Source: Bartonella queenslandensis (lineage in GTDB: Bacteria > Pseudomonadota > Alphaproteobacteria > Rhizobiales > Rhizobiaceae). Taken from it: 64,000 nt of DNA. Numbering within the stretch: the first letter of the stretch is position 1; each line of letters opens with the position of its first letter. Location: positions 124,001 through 188,000 of the forward strand of contig NZ_NAAI01000003.1 in assembly GCF_018155095.1 (NCBI RefSeq), read 5' to 3'. The notes beneath the pieces were generated by a model. That model was not told where the DNA came from. It saw nothing but the letters and a program-made list of their open reading frames with translations, and ran no database searches. Below, in pieces: positions 2,778 through 61,174 of this stretch. A program made the position numbers and the translations under genes.

Positions 2778-3374
2778 TTAAGCTTCCTGATGAGGACTAT
2801 CTATATCGCTTTCATTAATTTCTTCTGTCAACAATTCTTCCTGATTTTCTTCTAATATTTCTTCTTTAATATTATATATTTCTTCAACAGAAGTAAGAGT
2901 TTCACCTTCTGCTTGGCGTTGTGCTTCACTCGTGGAACGCGCCACGTTAATAACCACAGAAATTTGAACTTCAGGATGGAGGTTAAGGGTAATCGTATGA
3001 AGACCGATCATTTTTATTGGATGATTAAGTTCAATTTGATTTCGTCCAATAGAGAATCCTTCATTTGTTATGATTTCAGCAATATCACGTGTTGACACAG
3101 ATCCATAAAGTTGTCCTGTTTCACCAGCAGAACGCACAGCAATAAATGATTGACCATCAAGTTTTTCAGCAATTTTTTGCGCTTCGCCTTTGCGTTCAAG
3201 GTTACGTGCTTCAAGTTGTGCGCGTTGTATCTCAAAATGTTTTTTATTAGCTTCATTTGCACGTAAAGCTTTACCTTGAGGTAAGAGAAAATTACGTGCA
3301 TAACCATCTTTCACTGAGACAATATCACCCATCTGACCAAGACGAGGAATGCGCTCAAGTAGAATAATATCCAT
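2778..3374 (-). CDS. rplI: 50S ribosomal protein L9
   Basis: L9 binds 23S rRNA at the base of the L1 stalk. The first 50 residues carry the L9 signature ([16 protein letters not shown] with the following helix), then the connecting helix and a C-terminal domain to about residue 150. The protein is 198 aa, longer than the roughly 150 aa of enteric L9, because of an acidic Glu-rich tail (about residues 160-198, with [15 protein letters not shown]). Such tails are usual in Rhizobiales L9. It follows the DUF2232 gene by 25 bp in the rpsF-rpsR-DUF2232-rplI operon. Confidence 0.97.
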
Positions 3375-3399
3375 AGTCTTTCCTTTCGAACAAATAAAT

Positions 3400-4410
3400 T
3401 TAGTGAAGTTTTTTACGTGATTGAATGTTGTATTGAATAGCAGCCCAAATACCCATCAAAAACATCATGAAAGAGATAGGTGGGGAAAAAACGATAGTTA
3501 AAATAGCAATATAAACAAGGGAAAGTATAATAATCCGACCGTTTACCCCTTTTGTAATATTGTGAAGATACGCTAGACCGCTAATTGATATAGTAACAAT
3601 ATAGGCAGAGCTAAAGACACATGTCCCCAAATTAAGGGAAGTGCTGAATTCAACCATTGACGCGATGGAAACAACAATGAAAATGACAATTCCAGAAATC
3701 GGAAGGCGAAGCGTTTTGCTCCAATCATCGCGCGGTCTTTTTAGCCACTTCATATATTGGGCTATTATCATTGAAAAATAAAGATTACCAATGAGAAAAA
3801 TCAAACTATAAACTGTCAGAGCGATAGCTGCCAATGTTGCAGCATGTACCATTAAAAAATCACTAACAGCAAGGATATTAGCTTCTTTTAATGACTGCGA
3901 TTGTTGTAGGGTTTGTACGATATTTTCAGTGATTTTTTTTGCAATGAGAGGAGTGTCTGGATGGGCTTTTACGTAGAGTCCAATGAAGGTTACTATCAGA
4001 GCAATAAAGTTTGTTAAATGAAAAATAACGGATGATAATGGATACCATATCAGTGAGTTTTCTTTTTGCGCTGGTCGTGCAAGTCCAAGAAGCCAAGAGG
4101 CATAAACAGCAGGAAGAAAAGATAACAACATAAGACCAAGAGCAATATAGATATCAGTGGTTACGACAAGAACAAGAGTAGCACTTACTAAGGCAATAAA
4201 GCTGGCAAATGTTCCTTGGCCGAAAGCAACAATAAAAATTGGTAATGAAAGAAAGCAGCCAAGAAGAAGAGAAAAAGAAGGCGCTATATTGGCAACACTG
4301 ATGATTGCCATGTCTATCACAACAGCAAATAATCCTGCAACAACACCGGTTAATATCTCATAAGTACGATTTTTTTTCATTGCTGTCCTGCTTTCTGCAG
4401 TTAGAGGCAT
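3400..4410 (-). CDS. DUF2232-family multi-pass membrane protein
   Basis: This 336-aa protein is very hydrophobic, with about eight predicted membrane segments (examples near residues 20-40, 45-65, 68-100, 170-200, 220-245 and 290-325). Genes of this DUF2232/YybS-like type sit between rpsR and rplI in Rhizobiales, as here. The function is unknown. I chose the ATG at 4410 because a GAGG-type ribosome site lies about 10 nt upstream; an internal ATG at 4380 is the alternative. It lies 118 bp after rpsR and probably belongs to the same transcript. Confidence 0.85.
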
Positions 4411-4528
4411 ATCAATCCCTCAACTTTTATATTTAAGTGCTTAACATAGGATACAATAAGCTATTTCTCTAAACCATATAAGAAAAGCAACTGGAGAGAT
4501 TCCCCAGTTGCAAGAGTGTATTGATCAT

Positions 4529-4780
4529 TTACTTTATCACATATGGAAGTAAGCCTAAAAAGCGAGCGCGTTTTATAGCGTTAGCTAATTCACGCTGTTT
4601 TTTCTGACTAACAGCTGTAATTCGTGAGGGAACAATTTTTCCACGTTCCGAAATATAACGTTGTAATAATTTTATATCTTTATAATCAATTCTAGGAGCA
4701 TTAGCTCCTGAAAAAGGACATGTTTTGCGACGACGATGAAAAGGGCGACGTGCAGAGTTTTGATTCGTATCAGTCATCAT
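4529..4780 (-). CDS. rpsR: 30S ribosomal protein S18
   Basis: S18 pairs with S6 on the platform of the 30S subunit. The 83-aa product has the family core: a Cys-containing N-terminus (KTCPFSG), [19 protein letters not shown] and the C-terminal [20 protein letters not shown]. The start overlaps the rpsF stop by 4 bp, indicating translational coupling with its partner S6. The length is normal for alphaproteobacteria. Confidence 0.98.
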
Positions 4781-5184
4781 TCTACCCCTTCTATAGCATT
4801 TTCACGTTGACGACGTGAGGAACGAGAGCGCTCTTCATCCTGACCAATATGTGTATTGCGATCAAGGTGTGAAAGCATTGCAGATTTTTCTTTTTCGTGT
4901 TTTTCTACACGAATGGTCATATAGCGCAAAATATCTTCATTGATTCGCATTTGACGTTCCATTTCAGCAATTGCTGCAGCTGGTGCATCAATATTGACCA
5001 ATACATAATAAGCCTTACGGTTTTTACGAATACGATAAGCAAGAGGACGAAGTCCCCAATTTTCTATACGCCCAACCTTTCCACCGTGCGTTTCAATGAC
5101 ACCTTTGTAAAGGCTTAAAAGTTCATCAACCTGCTGCGGTGCAACGTCTTGTCGGGCAAGGAACATATGTTCATAAAGAGCCAT
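4777..5184 (-). CDS. rpsF: 30S ribosomal protein S6
   Basis: This is the S6 ribosomal protein, 135 aa from the ATG at 5184. The N-terminus [19 protein letters not shown] and the core [21 protein letters not shown] are diagnostic. A longer reading from an upstream TTG at 5202 would add six residues over the ribosome-binding site (AAAGG about 9 nt before the ATG), so I rejected it. The charged C-terminal tail (about 100-135) is typical of Rhizobiales. This is the first gene of the minus-strand operon; see the leader at 5185-5400. Confidence 0.97.
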
Positions 5185-5400
5185 TGTTTTGCCTTTCTTC
5201 AATTAAATTTTACCGGTTTTAGCGCAAAGCCTCTGCGACTTGTCTTTTTTGGAAATCCAAAGAAGAAAGGACGCGTTTACGATTTGAGACATCTCAGAGC
5301 GGAGACACGGGAGGCCGGAAACATTATATCTCCTACTGATTTTACAGCCCTCCGTTCAACCTCCAGCTAAAGTGCCGGCAACGAACATTTCACATTTACA
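5185..5400 (-). promoter_or_regulatory. Structured rpsF leader, candidate S6:S18 autoregulatory RNA
   Basis: This roughly 215-nt leader contains a GC-rich block unlike the AT-rich DNA around it. On the minus strand, CGGAGGG (5348-5354) can pair with CCTCCCG (5308-5314), leaving a bulged C, and an outer GGAG can pair with CTCC across an internal loop. Leaders of rpsF operons are known in many bacteria to bind the S6:S18 complex through a bulged helix; placing this one in that class is inference. The region also lies upstream of the divergent PAP2 gene, so part of it may be shared promoter DNA. Confidence 0.4.
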
Positions 5401-5527
5401 GGTTATCTTTTAAAATAGCAAGTTTACGCACATAAAAAAATGGATTTATTAAATCTTGATATATTTTCGATATATTTCTTTCTTCTACAAAGATATAGGA
5501 CTGTAACATACAGATAAGGAGAGAAAA

Positions 5528-58583: not shown

Positions 58584-58991
58584 ATGAGAGGTGTAATTCT
58601 TACTCAAGATCAAGGAACGTATCTCGTTTCAGGTGATGATGGTAGGCGTTATCAGTTTGCGACTTGGGATTGGTTGGGAAAGAAACCACCAAGGATTGGT
58701 GATACTGTTGATTTTGTCTATGAAGGAGGAGTGGTCAGTTCTGTTTTTCCGTTGTTAAGACCAGGTACAGAAAACTCAAAGATCATGTTCGCACTTCTTT
58801 GTTGGTTTGCAGGTATCTTTGGTGTTCATCGTTTTATGGTTGGGAGAGTTCGCACTGGTGCTTTAATGCTCATTCTATCTTTATCGGTTGCTGGATTGGT
58901 GATTACCGGTATTTGGGCAATTGTTGATTTTATACTCATTGTTGCTGGAAAATTTACGGATAAAGATGGGAATCAGATTACAGACTTGTAA
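58584..58991 (+). CDS. TM2-domain protein, copy 1
   Basis: This 135-aa protein has two parts. An N-terminal domain of about 55 residues (GVILTQDQGTYLVSGDDGRR ... WDWLG...GDTVDFVYEG) has the look of a small OB/cold-shock-like beta barrel. A TM2 domain follows (WFAGIFGVHRFMVGRVRTGA, then a second helix and an acidic DKDGNQI end). I set the start at the ATG at 58584 by comparison with the two paralogues downstream. TM2 proteins are small membrane proteins of unknown role. It is the most diverged of the three copies and may be the ancestral one. Confidence 0.85.
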   Translation: MRGVILTQDQGTYLVSGDDGRRYQFATWDWLGKKPPRIGDTVDFVYEGGVVSSVFPLLRPGTENSKIMFALLCWFAGIFGVHRFMVGRVRTGALMLILSLSVAGLVITGIWAIVDFILIVAGKFTDKDGNQITDL

Positions 58992-59004
58992 AAATCTTAT
59001 AATA

Positions 59005-59037
59005 AAAAGAAGGTCATGTAGACCGCTTTTTATTTTT
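59005..59037 (+). terminator. Hairpin terminator after TM2 copy 1
   Basis: AAAAGAAGGTC (59005-59015) pairs with GACCGCTTTT (59021-59030) through a 2x2 internal mismatch and a 5-nt loop, followed by a T-rich run. It lies 15 bp after the stop of TM2 copy 1. Confidence 0.55.
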
Positions 59038-59150
59038 ATAGATATATTAAGTTCGTAACGCCGAATTATGGTACTATACGTTTTTAAGTAGAAATATTAA
59101 GAAAAATATGCACAGTTAAATAAAACTATTGAAAAAAACTGTGCTATTTT

Positions 59151-59338
59151 ATACGGGTAGAATAAAGACGTAAATCAATTACAGCTTACTTTAGTGTTTC
59201 TGTTTATAGCAGTGGAAAACACTAATTATTGGGGGGATTCAAACTATTTCAATTCCACATTTATCATGGTTTCTATGCGTTTTATTTACGCAGTGAGGTT
59301 AATCAGCATATTATCTAAATTAGGAAAATCTCTTTATG
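59151..59338 (+). pseudogene. ftsB: 5' fragment of ftsB, first decayed copy
   Basis: This spacer DNA aligns by eye with the first 60 or so codons of the intact ftsB at 60842: GTGCTATTTTAT before the start, AAACGT.AATCAAT, CTATTTCA, CATATTTATCATGG, TACGCAGTGA.GTTAATCAG.ATATTA and TTAG.AAA. The start codon reads ATA and stops are present. The homology ends just before the leader of TM2 copy 2. Confidence 0.8.
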
Positions 59339-59375
59339 AATAACACATGAGGAGCAGCTTTATAGGTGGTTGAAG

Positions 59376-59819
59376 ATGAAAGGTAAGATTATTGGTCAAG
59401 ATCAAGGAGATTATTTCGTTTCAGGGGCTGATGGTAAGCGCTATCAATTTGCGAGTTGGGATTGGTTAGGAAAAAAAACACCAAAGGTAGGGGATACCGT
59501 TGATTTTGTATATGAAGATAGCGTTGTTAAATCTGTTCTCCCTCTTTCGAGTGAATCGCAGTCAGAAAAATCAAGATTGGCGATAGCACTTGTTTGTTGG
59601 TTTTTTGGATATTTGGGAATTCATCGCTTTATGGCAGGTAAAGTTGGAACGGGCATTGCAATGCTTCTTATAAATATAATAAGTATAATAACTATACCAC
59701 TTTTTGTAGGGCTTATAGTAATTATTTTTATAATGACACCTTGGGTATTGATTGATTTTATAGTTATTTTATCCGGAAATTTTAGGGATGAAAATGGGGA
59801 TAAAATTATAAATTGGTAG
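59376..59819 (+). CDS. TM2-domain protein, copy 2
   Basis: This 147-aa paralogue of the neighbouring TM2 genes starts at the ATG at 59376 (MKGKIIGQDQG; GGTGG-type site upstream). It has the N-terminal beta domain (SGADGKRYQFASWDW, VGDTVDFVYED) and a TM2 domain (CWFFGYLGIHRFMAGKVGTG), then a longer hydrophobic second segment and an acidic end (DENGDKI). It is close to copy 3 and further from copy 1. Function unknown. Confidence 0.83.
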   Translation: MKGKIIGQDQGDYFVSGADGKRYQFASWDWLGKKTPKVGDTVDFVYEDSVVKSVLPLSSESQSEKSRLAIALVCWFFGYLGIHRFMAGKVGTGIAMLLINIISIITIPLFVGLIVIIFIMTPWVLIDFIVILSGNFRDENGDKIINW

Positions 59820-59841
59820 AAATTTTAGCATAATATAAAAT

Positions 59842-59875
59842 GTAAAGAGCTAGAAACTTTCTTTACTTTTTATGT
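59842..59875 (+). terminator. Hairpin terminator after TM2 copy 2
   Basis: GTAAAGA (59842-59848) and TCTTTAC (59860-59866) form a 7-bp stem followed by TTTTTAT, 22 bp after the TM2 copy 2 stop. Confidence 0.5.
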
Positions 59876-59990
59876 TGTCAATATATTAATTTAATAATGT
59901 AAATTATTTTAGTCTATATATTTAAATATGAAATACTAAAGAAAATTATGTATATTTAAATAAAACTATTGAAAAAGACTATAATATTTC

Positions 59991-60180
59991 ATATGAAAGA
60001 GGCAAAAGTGCAAATCGAACAGCGTGCTTTGTATTGCCACTTATAATTGCGGGAATTTTAAGTTGTTGGGGGATTTTAAGCTTTTTAAATTGTCATATAT
60101 CACGGTGAATACAGATTGTATTCATGCAGTGAGGATTATCCAATATATTATCATATTAGAAGAAAAACTTCTTTATGAAT
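59991..60180 (+). pseudogene. ftsB: 5' fragment of ftsB, second decayed copy
   Basis: This matches the start of the intact ftsB and the first fragment: AAAGTGC..., GTGCTTTGTA.T.CC, TTATCA, TTGTATTCA.GCAGTGA.G.TTA, CA.TATATTA. The reading frame is broken, and the homology stops at CTTCTTTATGAATAAC, as in the first fragment, just before TM2 copy 3. The shared end point shows that both fragments arose from the same duplication unit. Confidence 0.8.
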
Positions 60181-60202
60181 AACAATTTTATAGGTGGTGA
60201 AG

Positions 60203-60655
60203 ATGAAAGGTAAGATTATTGGTCATGATCAAGGAGATTATTTCATTTCAGGGGCTGATGGTAAGCGCTATCAATTTGCGAATTGGGATTGGTCAGGAAA
60301 AACGCCGCCGAAGGTTGGTGACGTCGTTGATTTTGTGTGTGAAGGGGATACCATTAAATCTATTTTCCCTATCTTAACTGAAGGTCAGTCACAGCAATCA
60401 AAAGTGACGTTAGCGGTCGTTTGTTTTTTTCTAGGTGGACTAGGAATTCATCGTTTTATGGTTGGTAAAGTTGGAACGGGCATTGCAATGCTTCTTATAA
60501 GTATAATAAGTATAATAAGTATAATAAGTGTAGCACTTTTTTTGGTAGGGGTTCTAGGGATTATTTTTATAATTATACCTTGGGTATTGATTGATTTTAT
60601 AGTCATTTTAACAGGAAATTTTAAGGACAAGAATGGGTGTAAGATCACAAGTTAG
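60203..60655 (+). CDS. TM2-domain protein, copy 3
   Basis: This 150-aa paralogue is closest to copy 2. It has the N-terminal beta domain (MKGKIIGHDQGDYFISGADG, then VGDVVDFVCEG) and TM2 domain (FFLGGLGIHRFMVGKVGTG). The second hydrophobic segment is lengthened by a 9-bp DNA repeat (60497-60532) that encodes Ile-Ser-Ile units. I set the start at the ATG at 60203. It lies directly upstream of the intact ftsB. Function unknown. Confidence 0.83.
   Translation: MKGKIIGHDQGDYFISGADGKRYQFANWDWSGKTPPKVGDVVDFVCEGDTIKSIFPILTEGQSQQSKVTLAVVCFFLGGLGIHRFMVGKVGTGIAMLLISIISIISIISVALFLVGVLGIIFIIIPWVLIDFIVILTGNFKDKNGCKITS
60497..60532 (+). repeat. In-frame 9-bp microsatellite in TM2 copy 3
   Basis: ATAAGTATA is repeated three times exactly (60497-60523), then once with one change (ATAAGTGTA, 60524-60532). 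Each unit adds three hydrophobic residues to the second membrane segment. Copy 2 has only about one comparable unit at the same point. Confidence 0.85.
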
Positions 60656-60841
60656 TAGGATATCCAATATTTGTTATATAACAAAGTGGGGTATTTAGCT
60701 TACTTTGATTGTTTTGAGGGGGGGTAAATTGGTGATAAAAAATTGTTTGCGTTTCTAGATTGAGTAATGAGGTGTTAATCAAAATCATGCATAGTTGGGC
60801 AGAATATTAAGAAACTTATGCTGTAAAGACTGTGCTATTTT

Positions 60842-61174
60842 ATGTGGACAAAACAGAAACGTCGATCAATCAAAGTGCGCTTTGTACTACCTTTTATGAC
60901 GGTGGGCGTTTTGAGCTATTTCAGTTACCATATTTATCATGGTGAGTATGGATTGTATTCACGCAGTGAAGTTAATCAGTATATTAGCGAATTAGAAAAG
61001 GAGCTTCATACAATAGAAGCTGAGCGACAATTCATTGAAAAGCGCATTTCTCTTTTACGCAATGGACATATTGAAAAGGACATGTTGGATGAGTATGTCC
61101 GAAAGAATTTGAACTTTTCTAAGCCAAATGAACTGACAATCTTAATACCTTTAAATGATACCAAAGGTAAATGA
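60842..61174 (+). CDS. ftsB: Septum formation initiator FtsB/DivIC-family protein
   Basis: This 110-aa bitopic protein has a basic N-terminus (KQKRRSIKVR), one membrane helix (about 12-32) and a periplasmic coiled coil (about 42-70, ISELEKELHTIEAERQFIEK). A conserved end follows (KDMLDEYVRKNLNFSKPNEL). FtsB links FtsL and FtsQ in the divisome. The position between eno and pdhA is standard for Rhizobiales. Two decayed copies of its first half lie upstream in the TM2 gene spacers. Confidence 0.88.
   Translation: MWTKQKRRSIKVRFVLPFMTVGVLSYFSYHIYHGEYGLYSRSEVNQYISELEKELHTIEAERQFIEKRISLLRNGHIEKDMLDEYVRKNLNFSKPNELTILIPLNDTKGK

Follow-up and report, generated by a model that had tools for sequence, protein, structure and literature searches.

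The window analysed here is a stretch of 64,000 nucleotides of Bartonella queenslandensis DNA (contig NZ_NAAI01000003.1, positions 124,001 to 188,000 of the forward strand), and it contains, between eno and ftsB, three tandem genes for proteins with a TM2 domain, each followed by DNA related to the 5' part of ftsB. Comparison with other members of the genus suggests, with a probability that we put at roughly 0.8, that this locus is a birth-and-death tandem array whose additional copies have been retained and diversified in one clade and whose tracts recombine. Copy-number variation, pseudogenes, and recombination both between copies and between species were all found among the relatives.

The order of genes in the window is eno, TM2a, spacer 1, TM2b, spacer 2, TM2c, spacer 3, ftsB and pdhA, with the TM2 genes, the first two spacers and ftsB read from the plus strand. 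TM2a (58584..58991) is the ancestral-type copy, an open reading frame (ORF) of 135 amino acids with a predicted oligonucleotide/oligosaccharide-binding (OB)-like N-terminal domain and a TM2 membrane hairpin. Local alignment shows that spacer 1 (58992..59375) holds a decayed ftsB leader and about codons 1-53, followed by a TM2 leader of about 45 bp with an AGGTGG resembling a ribosome-binding site, and that spacer 2 (59820..60202) holds a second decayed ftsB 5' part and TM2 leader. TM2b (59376..59819) lies between the spacers and encodes 147 amino acids with a lengthened second membrane segment, which is longest of all in the 150-residue product of TM2c (60203..60655). The third unit, unlike the first two, continues into an intact ftsB of 110 codons. 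The preliminary description proposed that a unit of about 0.8 kb, made of a TM2 gene and the 5' part of ftsB, was duplicated twice, and this is borne out by MAFFT and local alignments. Repeats in the window cover the units, their starts are spaced by about 0.79-0.84 kb, and the units are 70-80% identical over 760-813 aligned positions (73% over 760 positions for the first and second, 80% over 813 for the second and third, and 70% over 774 for the first and third).

Alignment of the three units also confirmed that the spacers carry dead ftsB ends, and the similarity to ftsB on which the whole description depended is present. Local alignment scores against the ftsB region were 86 for spacer 1 and 76 for spacer 2, compared with maxima of 34 and 36, respectively, in 500 dinucleotide shuffles of each spacer. 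The homology stops near 60997-60999, at about codon 53 of ftsB and not at about codon 60 as had been estimated. The FtsB/DivIC family (PF04977) is represented both by the intact gene at 60842-61174 and by the 5' remnants, which differ from it in that they are not genes: the start codon has changed from ATG to ATA in both (MAFFT alignment), the match in spacer 1 holds two stops and indels are present, so that no coding potential can be credited to the remnants.

The divergence of the spacers among nine genomes was informative about their age and constraint. The ftsB remnant of spacer 1 diverges by 0.199, against 0.208 at the four-fold sites of TM2a and 0.242 at those of TM2b, and is no lower than the four-fold sites of eno (0.173) and ftsB (0.145). 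As its divergence matches that of four-fold sites in TM2a and TM2b, this remnant behaves as dead DNA. Spacer 2 diverges less than spacer 1 (0.081), and its remnant core, at 0.058 (confidence interval, CI, 0.036-0.083), overlaps the four-fold sites of TM2c, whose divergence of 0.107 (CI 0.064-0.154) is about half that of TM2a or TM2b. Since spacer 2 and TM2c both diverge about half as much, they make up a younger block. Unusual functional conservation of spacer 2 was considered and rejected because the youth of the block accounts for its divergence of 8%, although some constraint may act on it as well.

These measurements bear on the possibility that the copied part of ftsB has a function of its own, either by providing the TM2 copy that follows with a promoter or a leader RNA or by encoding a small peptide. 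The unit includes, as judged by eye, only about 45 bp of TM2 leader, so TM2b and TM2c would need either read-through from upstream or DNA within the ftsB remnants, and the low divergence of spacer 2 is in keeping with such a role. However the ftsB DNA of spacer 1 diverges at the neutral rate, that of spacer 2 overlaps the four-fold rate of TM2c, and indels that would break a reading frame differ between genomes. A block conserved upstream of the intact ftsB in 19 Bartonella genomes (window 60765-60803; GTAatgaGGTaTTAATcAAAAT.aTGcATAgTT) is possibly a promoter or regulatory site, but by eye its counterparts in the fragments seem to have decayed. The number of promoter-like sites does not clearly exceed expectation (20 compared with 13.9 +/- 3.5 in shuffles), and a search of Rfam at E values up to 1 gave no match. 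Taken together, this makes a function for the ftsB end unlikely. A terminator-like hairpin is also found shortly 3' of TM2c at 60682-60707, one of three such sites in the stretch compared with 1.0 +/- 1.1 in shuffles.

The same array is common to most of the lineage to which the window belongs. Our genus set comprised 71 genomes, and the locus was fetched from 58 of them; the remaining 13 have at most one TM2 match each (one has none), and 12 named loci stand in for the group to which they belong. ftsB was found in all 71 genomes and matches to a TM2b query in 67. The lineage of the window, 41 genomes that take in B. doshiae, genome G023, the vinsonii group and the tribocorum/elizabethae group, has at least one extra unit in 37 members, the others being B. 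doshiae, G032, B. washoeensis and B. koehlerae. In the single-copy locus of B. koehlerae, TM2a and ftsB are separated by a remnant of the 3' end of TM2b, which shows that the copy was lost there by deletion. The preliminary description therefore needs changing in one respect, in that the duplications are neither recent nor local: the first is common to most of the lineage and the third copy to the tribocorum/elizabethae clade. The tree that accompanied these counts was built from eno, ftsB and a portion of pdhA and contained 69 of 70 rows, the B. queenslandensis assembly with locus L031 being excluded for runs of N. Two fusion ORFs of 402 and 431 amino acids in that assembly (L031, about 2960-5480) were rejected as artefacts of those runs, and it was dropped from trees and counts.

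Outside this lineage there is mostly one TM2 copy. No TM2 match lies between eno and ftsB in three loci of the bacilliformis group (L087 from genome G002, L091 from G007 and L092 from B. bacilliformis Ver097), and there is no TM2 match anywhere in G002, G007 or G008. In G041 and G042 (L124 and L125) the single copy is decayed. Its absence in the former and decay in the latter show that some species can do without even a single copy. Two loci from metagenome-assembled genomes, L074 and L076 (2900-6000), have TM2 and ftsB set apart by an additional stretch of about 3.1 kb, and a third, L075, has about 3.0 kb between eno and ftsB and no TM2 match. In a wider sample of the family, 13 of 151 genomes match TM2a, two of these being Bartonella. 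Beyond Bartonella, strong matches over the full length were confined to two genomes, both of the same genus (55% and 48% identical), the other matches being weak, and neither eno nor ftsB was found in the 7 kb around these two TM2 genes.

The junctions of the downstream copies help to clarify how the array arose. By eye, 47 of the 50 downstream-copy junctions aligned agree in joining ftsB codon ~53 to the TM2 leader, the exceptions being two in G006 and one in B. raoultii, and this shared junction is most simply explained by one duplication in an ancestor. G006 (L090, 2311-4058) was rejected as part of the shared event, as it has its own duplication of TM2 without ftsB DNA (81.5% identity over 893 bp); one of its extra copies is open and the other decayed. 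In a tree of 92 TM2 rows TM2a forms one group and TM2b and TM2c another, with TM2c nested within it, which suggests that the third copy arose later, in the tribocorum/elizabethae clade. We consider it likely that in an ancestor of the koehlerae/vinsonii/taylorii/tribocorum lineage a segment reaching from about 45 bp upstream of the only TM2 gene as far as ftsB codon ~53 was duplicated in tandem; the shared junction supports this event, which placed a new TM2b after TM2a and left a complete ftsB behind both. A second round in the tribocorum/elizabethae clade, supported by the tree and the counts, gave TM2c. TM2a has been conserved, and TM2b and TM2c have been lost or pseudogenised in many species; in the clade of the window purifying selection has maintained these two genes, and the second membrane segment they encode has grown longer and more diverse. 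Tracts have also been reshuffled by recombination among copies and across species, of which we found several cases.

One of these cases is in B. taylorii. For eno and pdhA, this species shows 91-93% identity to phoceensis and DB5-6, and 86-88% to Bartonella sp. AU16. When B. taylorii is compared with AU16 across the locus, eno, TM2a (80%), ftsB and pdhA span 80-89%, and identity reaches 89-91% in TM2b, 97% in spacer 2 and 98-99% in TM2c. Spacer 3 is 88% identical to that of AU16 compared with 66-69% to those of its own kin, so that the imported block measures about 1.2-1.4 kb. This block (L050, 4568-5811, perhaps to 6000) places a TM2b-spacer 2-TM2c segment of the tribocorum-clade type in a vinsonii-group background. 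There are other mosaics. The second copy of AU18 has, by eye, a TM2b-type start fused to a TM2c-type end, gabonensis has a frameshifted TM2b/TM2c hybrid, and in the second copy of CM31 the first 76 residues are 99% identical to TM2c of the window. TM2b of the window has a variable segment like the TM2c type and a C-terminal tail like the TM2b type. The Bartonella gene transfer agent is described as packaging the genome in 14 kb pieces (PMC2697382), and a second source argues that it aids duplication and recombination of secretion-system genes (PMC3610622). It was perhaps also the vehicle of the TM2b-TM2c block.

All three TM2 proteins exceed the gathering cut-off of the TM2 family (PF05154; 52.8, 37.9 and 50.0 bits, cut-off 27.9), just as the ftsB product is assigned to DivIC/FtsB by PF04977, and they share with the family a linker, G-x-H-R-F, that is invariant across 32 aligned TM2 copies. 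TM2b and TM2c of the window differ from TM2a in having 12 and 15 extra residues, mostly in the second hydrophobic segment. AlphaFold2 models of TM2a and TM2c are of medium confidence (mean predicted local distance difference test score, pLDDT, 77; predicted template-modelling score 0.39 and 0.45) and place helices at residues 89-98 and 102-121 of TM2a and at 90-108 and 110-137 of TM2c. The longer second segment in TM2b and TM2c could add a third membrane span. The models also predict an N-terminal five-strand barrel (pLDDT 81-92 over residues 1-50), which Foldseek matched to cold-shock OB folds with a probability of 1.00 and a TM-score of 0.63-0.68 by target length, the best E value being only 0.01. 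In this prediction the barrel resembles that of cold-shock and OB-fold proteins such as PDB entries 1c9o and 2kcm; the TM2 proteins differ from these two in being just 17-27% identical to them and in having no cold-shock Pfam match, TM2 being the sole Pfam family at E<=0.001. A sequence profile search of PDB returned 0 matches, and NCBIfam gave none above its cut-off. The predicted architecture is an OB-fold, cold-shock-like domain joined to a TM2 membrane hairpin.

The second membrane segment is also variable in sequence. In the window the extension of TM2c contains 9-bp repeats (ATAAGTATA) that encode a stretch rich in isoleucine and serine. TM2b of elizabethae, massiliensis and taylorii retains a short second segment, and several different hydrophobic extensions are found in others. 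In TM2c the variable segment spans about residues 95-129 (60485..60589), and its ratio of nonsynonymous to synonymous substitution (dN/dS, or omega) greatly exceeds the value for the remainder of TM2c. A codon model separating segment from rest gave twice the log-likelihood difference (2dlnL) as 58 for TM2c, 61 for TM2b and 10 for TM2a. For the TM2c segment omega is 2.7 by counting (CI 1.4-8.4), 1.35 in a codon model with a shared synonymous scale, which is not different from 1 (2dlnL 2.5), and 2.29 when the segment is given its own synonymous scale (2dlnL 4.9, p about 0.03); in TM2b it is below 1 (0.43-0.53). Positive selection on the TM2c segment is thus suggestive only, being confounded by repeat slippage, alignment and conversion. 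One might go further and regard TM2b and TM2c as a diversifying set, in which positive selection acts on a second helix that is rewritten by slippage of the 9-bp repeats, by gene conversion and by import from other species. The OB-like domain and the first helix would remain constant, and the second helix would be a variable 'cassette' answering some partner, for example a phage, a secretion complex, or a factor from a host or a competitor; as a whole this seems to us improbable.

The preliminary description also suggested that the open copies were kept by selection, and in the clade of the window this is supported. All 41 genomes of the lineage have an open TM2a. Of the 13 genomes with a TM2c (the clade of the window and B. 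taylorii), 11 have it open, and three open copies were counted in 10 genomes by script, or 11 with B. tribocorum L103. By counting with a codon bootstrap (95% limits), dN/dS is 0.20 for TM2a (18 rows, CI 0.14-0.29), 0.30 for TM2b (13 rows including taylorii, CI 0.22-0.41) and 0.52 for TM2c (10 rows including taylorii, CI 0.35-0.79), so that the upper limit is below 1 for each; the value for eno is 0.08. Segment omegas were obtained also with our own codon-model script. These ratios support purifying selection on the sequences of TM2b and TM2c in this clade, except in the variable second segment.

Several observations weigh against a birth-and-death array whose extra copies are kept. Selection for open copies is not general, as only 29 of the 52 extra copies in the lineage are open and 23 are decayed, and any benefit is thus limited to a clade. 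The script called 28 open and 24 not; one of the latter, TM2c of B. tribocorum L103, is open on inspection (142 amino acids from ATG) and was counted as such, and is absent from trees and omega sets. The koehlerae scar is outside the count, and the third copy of raoultii was scored as decayed, its start being out of frame and the remainder open. Many branches of the TM2 tree are weak (44 of 88 inner branches are starred), and approximately unbiased tests are compatible with a first duplication either before or after doshiae split off (p 0.43), and likewise for doshiae, G032 and washoeensis together (p 0.22). The omega of 0.52 for TM2c could in part represent relaxed constraint, and with recombination any tree-based omega is only approximate. 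A transplanted ftsB promoter was rejected, as the conserved upstream block looks degraded by eye in the six fragments compared, and is partly recognisable in spacer 1.

The numbers of decayed copies might also suggest that TM2b and TM2c are neutral passengers without function, which persist because they decay slowly or because horizontal import renews them, and the youth of the spacer 2-TM2c block, with its low four-fold divergence, would suit this. The bootstrap-supported dN/dS ratios below 1 and the high proportion of open TM2c copies stand in opposition to it. If the copies were neutral, about 16 nonsense changes would be expected on the ten-copy TM2c tree and about 63 on the 13-copy TM2b tree, figures that are indicative only because the sets were picked as open copies. 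We consider neutrality a slightly poorer explanation than a functional ftsB end. Gene dosage, in which more of one TM2 protein is useful, is the least probable of all: the genomes with three open copies would fit it, but the copies are 54-70% identical in protein and have different second-helix segments and omegas, where dosage would favour homogenised copies. Of the two benefits first suggested, dose or diversity, the former consequently fits poorly, also in view of the longer second segment and the exchange between species, and structural diversity is better supported. We infer that TM2b and TM2c are paralogues of distinct structure, retained for diversity of function and not for dose, perhaps in some membrane-associated role.

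Tandem arrays with copy-number variation are known in Bartonella from badA, iba and others (PMC3610622). Those are adhesin or secretion genes, and here the repeated gene encodes a small predicted membrane protein and lies between housekeeping genes. We found no literature on this TM2/ftsB locus in Bartonella, in a search outside of which most subscription journals lay, and searches on TM2 and cold-shock membrane proteins, bacterial TM2 duplications and Bartonella paralogue gene conversion gave nothing on this locus. The kind of array is therefore already known; what is new is the locus, the dead ftsB remnants and the variable helix. It provides a clean example of a tandem duplication that caught half a housekeeping gene and was then kept, edited and moved, in a genus known for its gene transfer agent. 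Within one locus, single-copy relatives, dead ftsB ends that in spacer 1 act as a built-in neutral yardstick, and surviving copies can all be compared. If the diversity of the second helix is adaptive, it would point to an undescribed membrane interaction in Bartonella.

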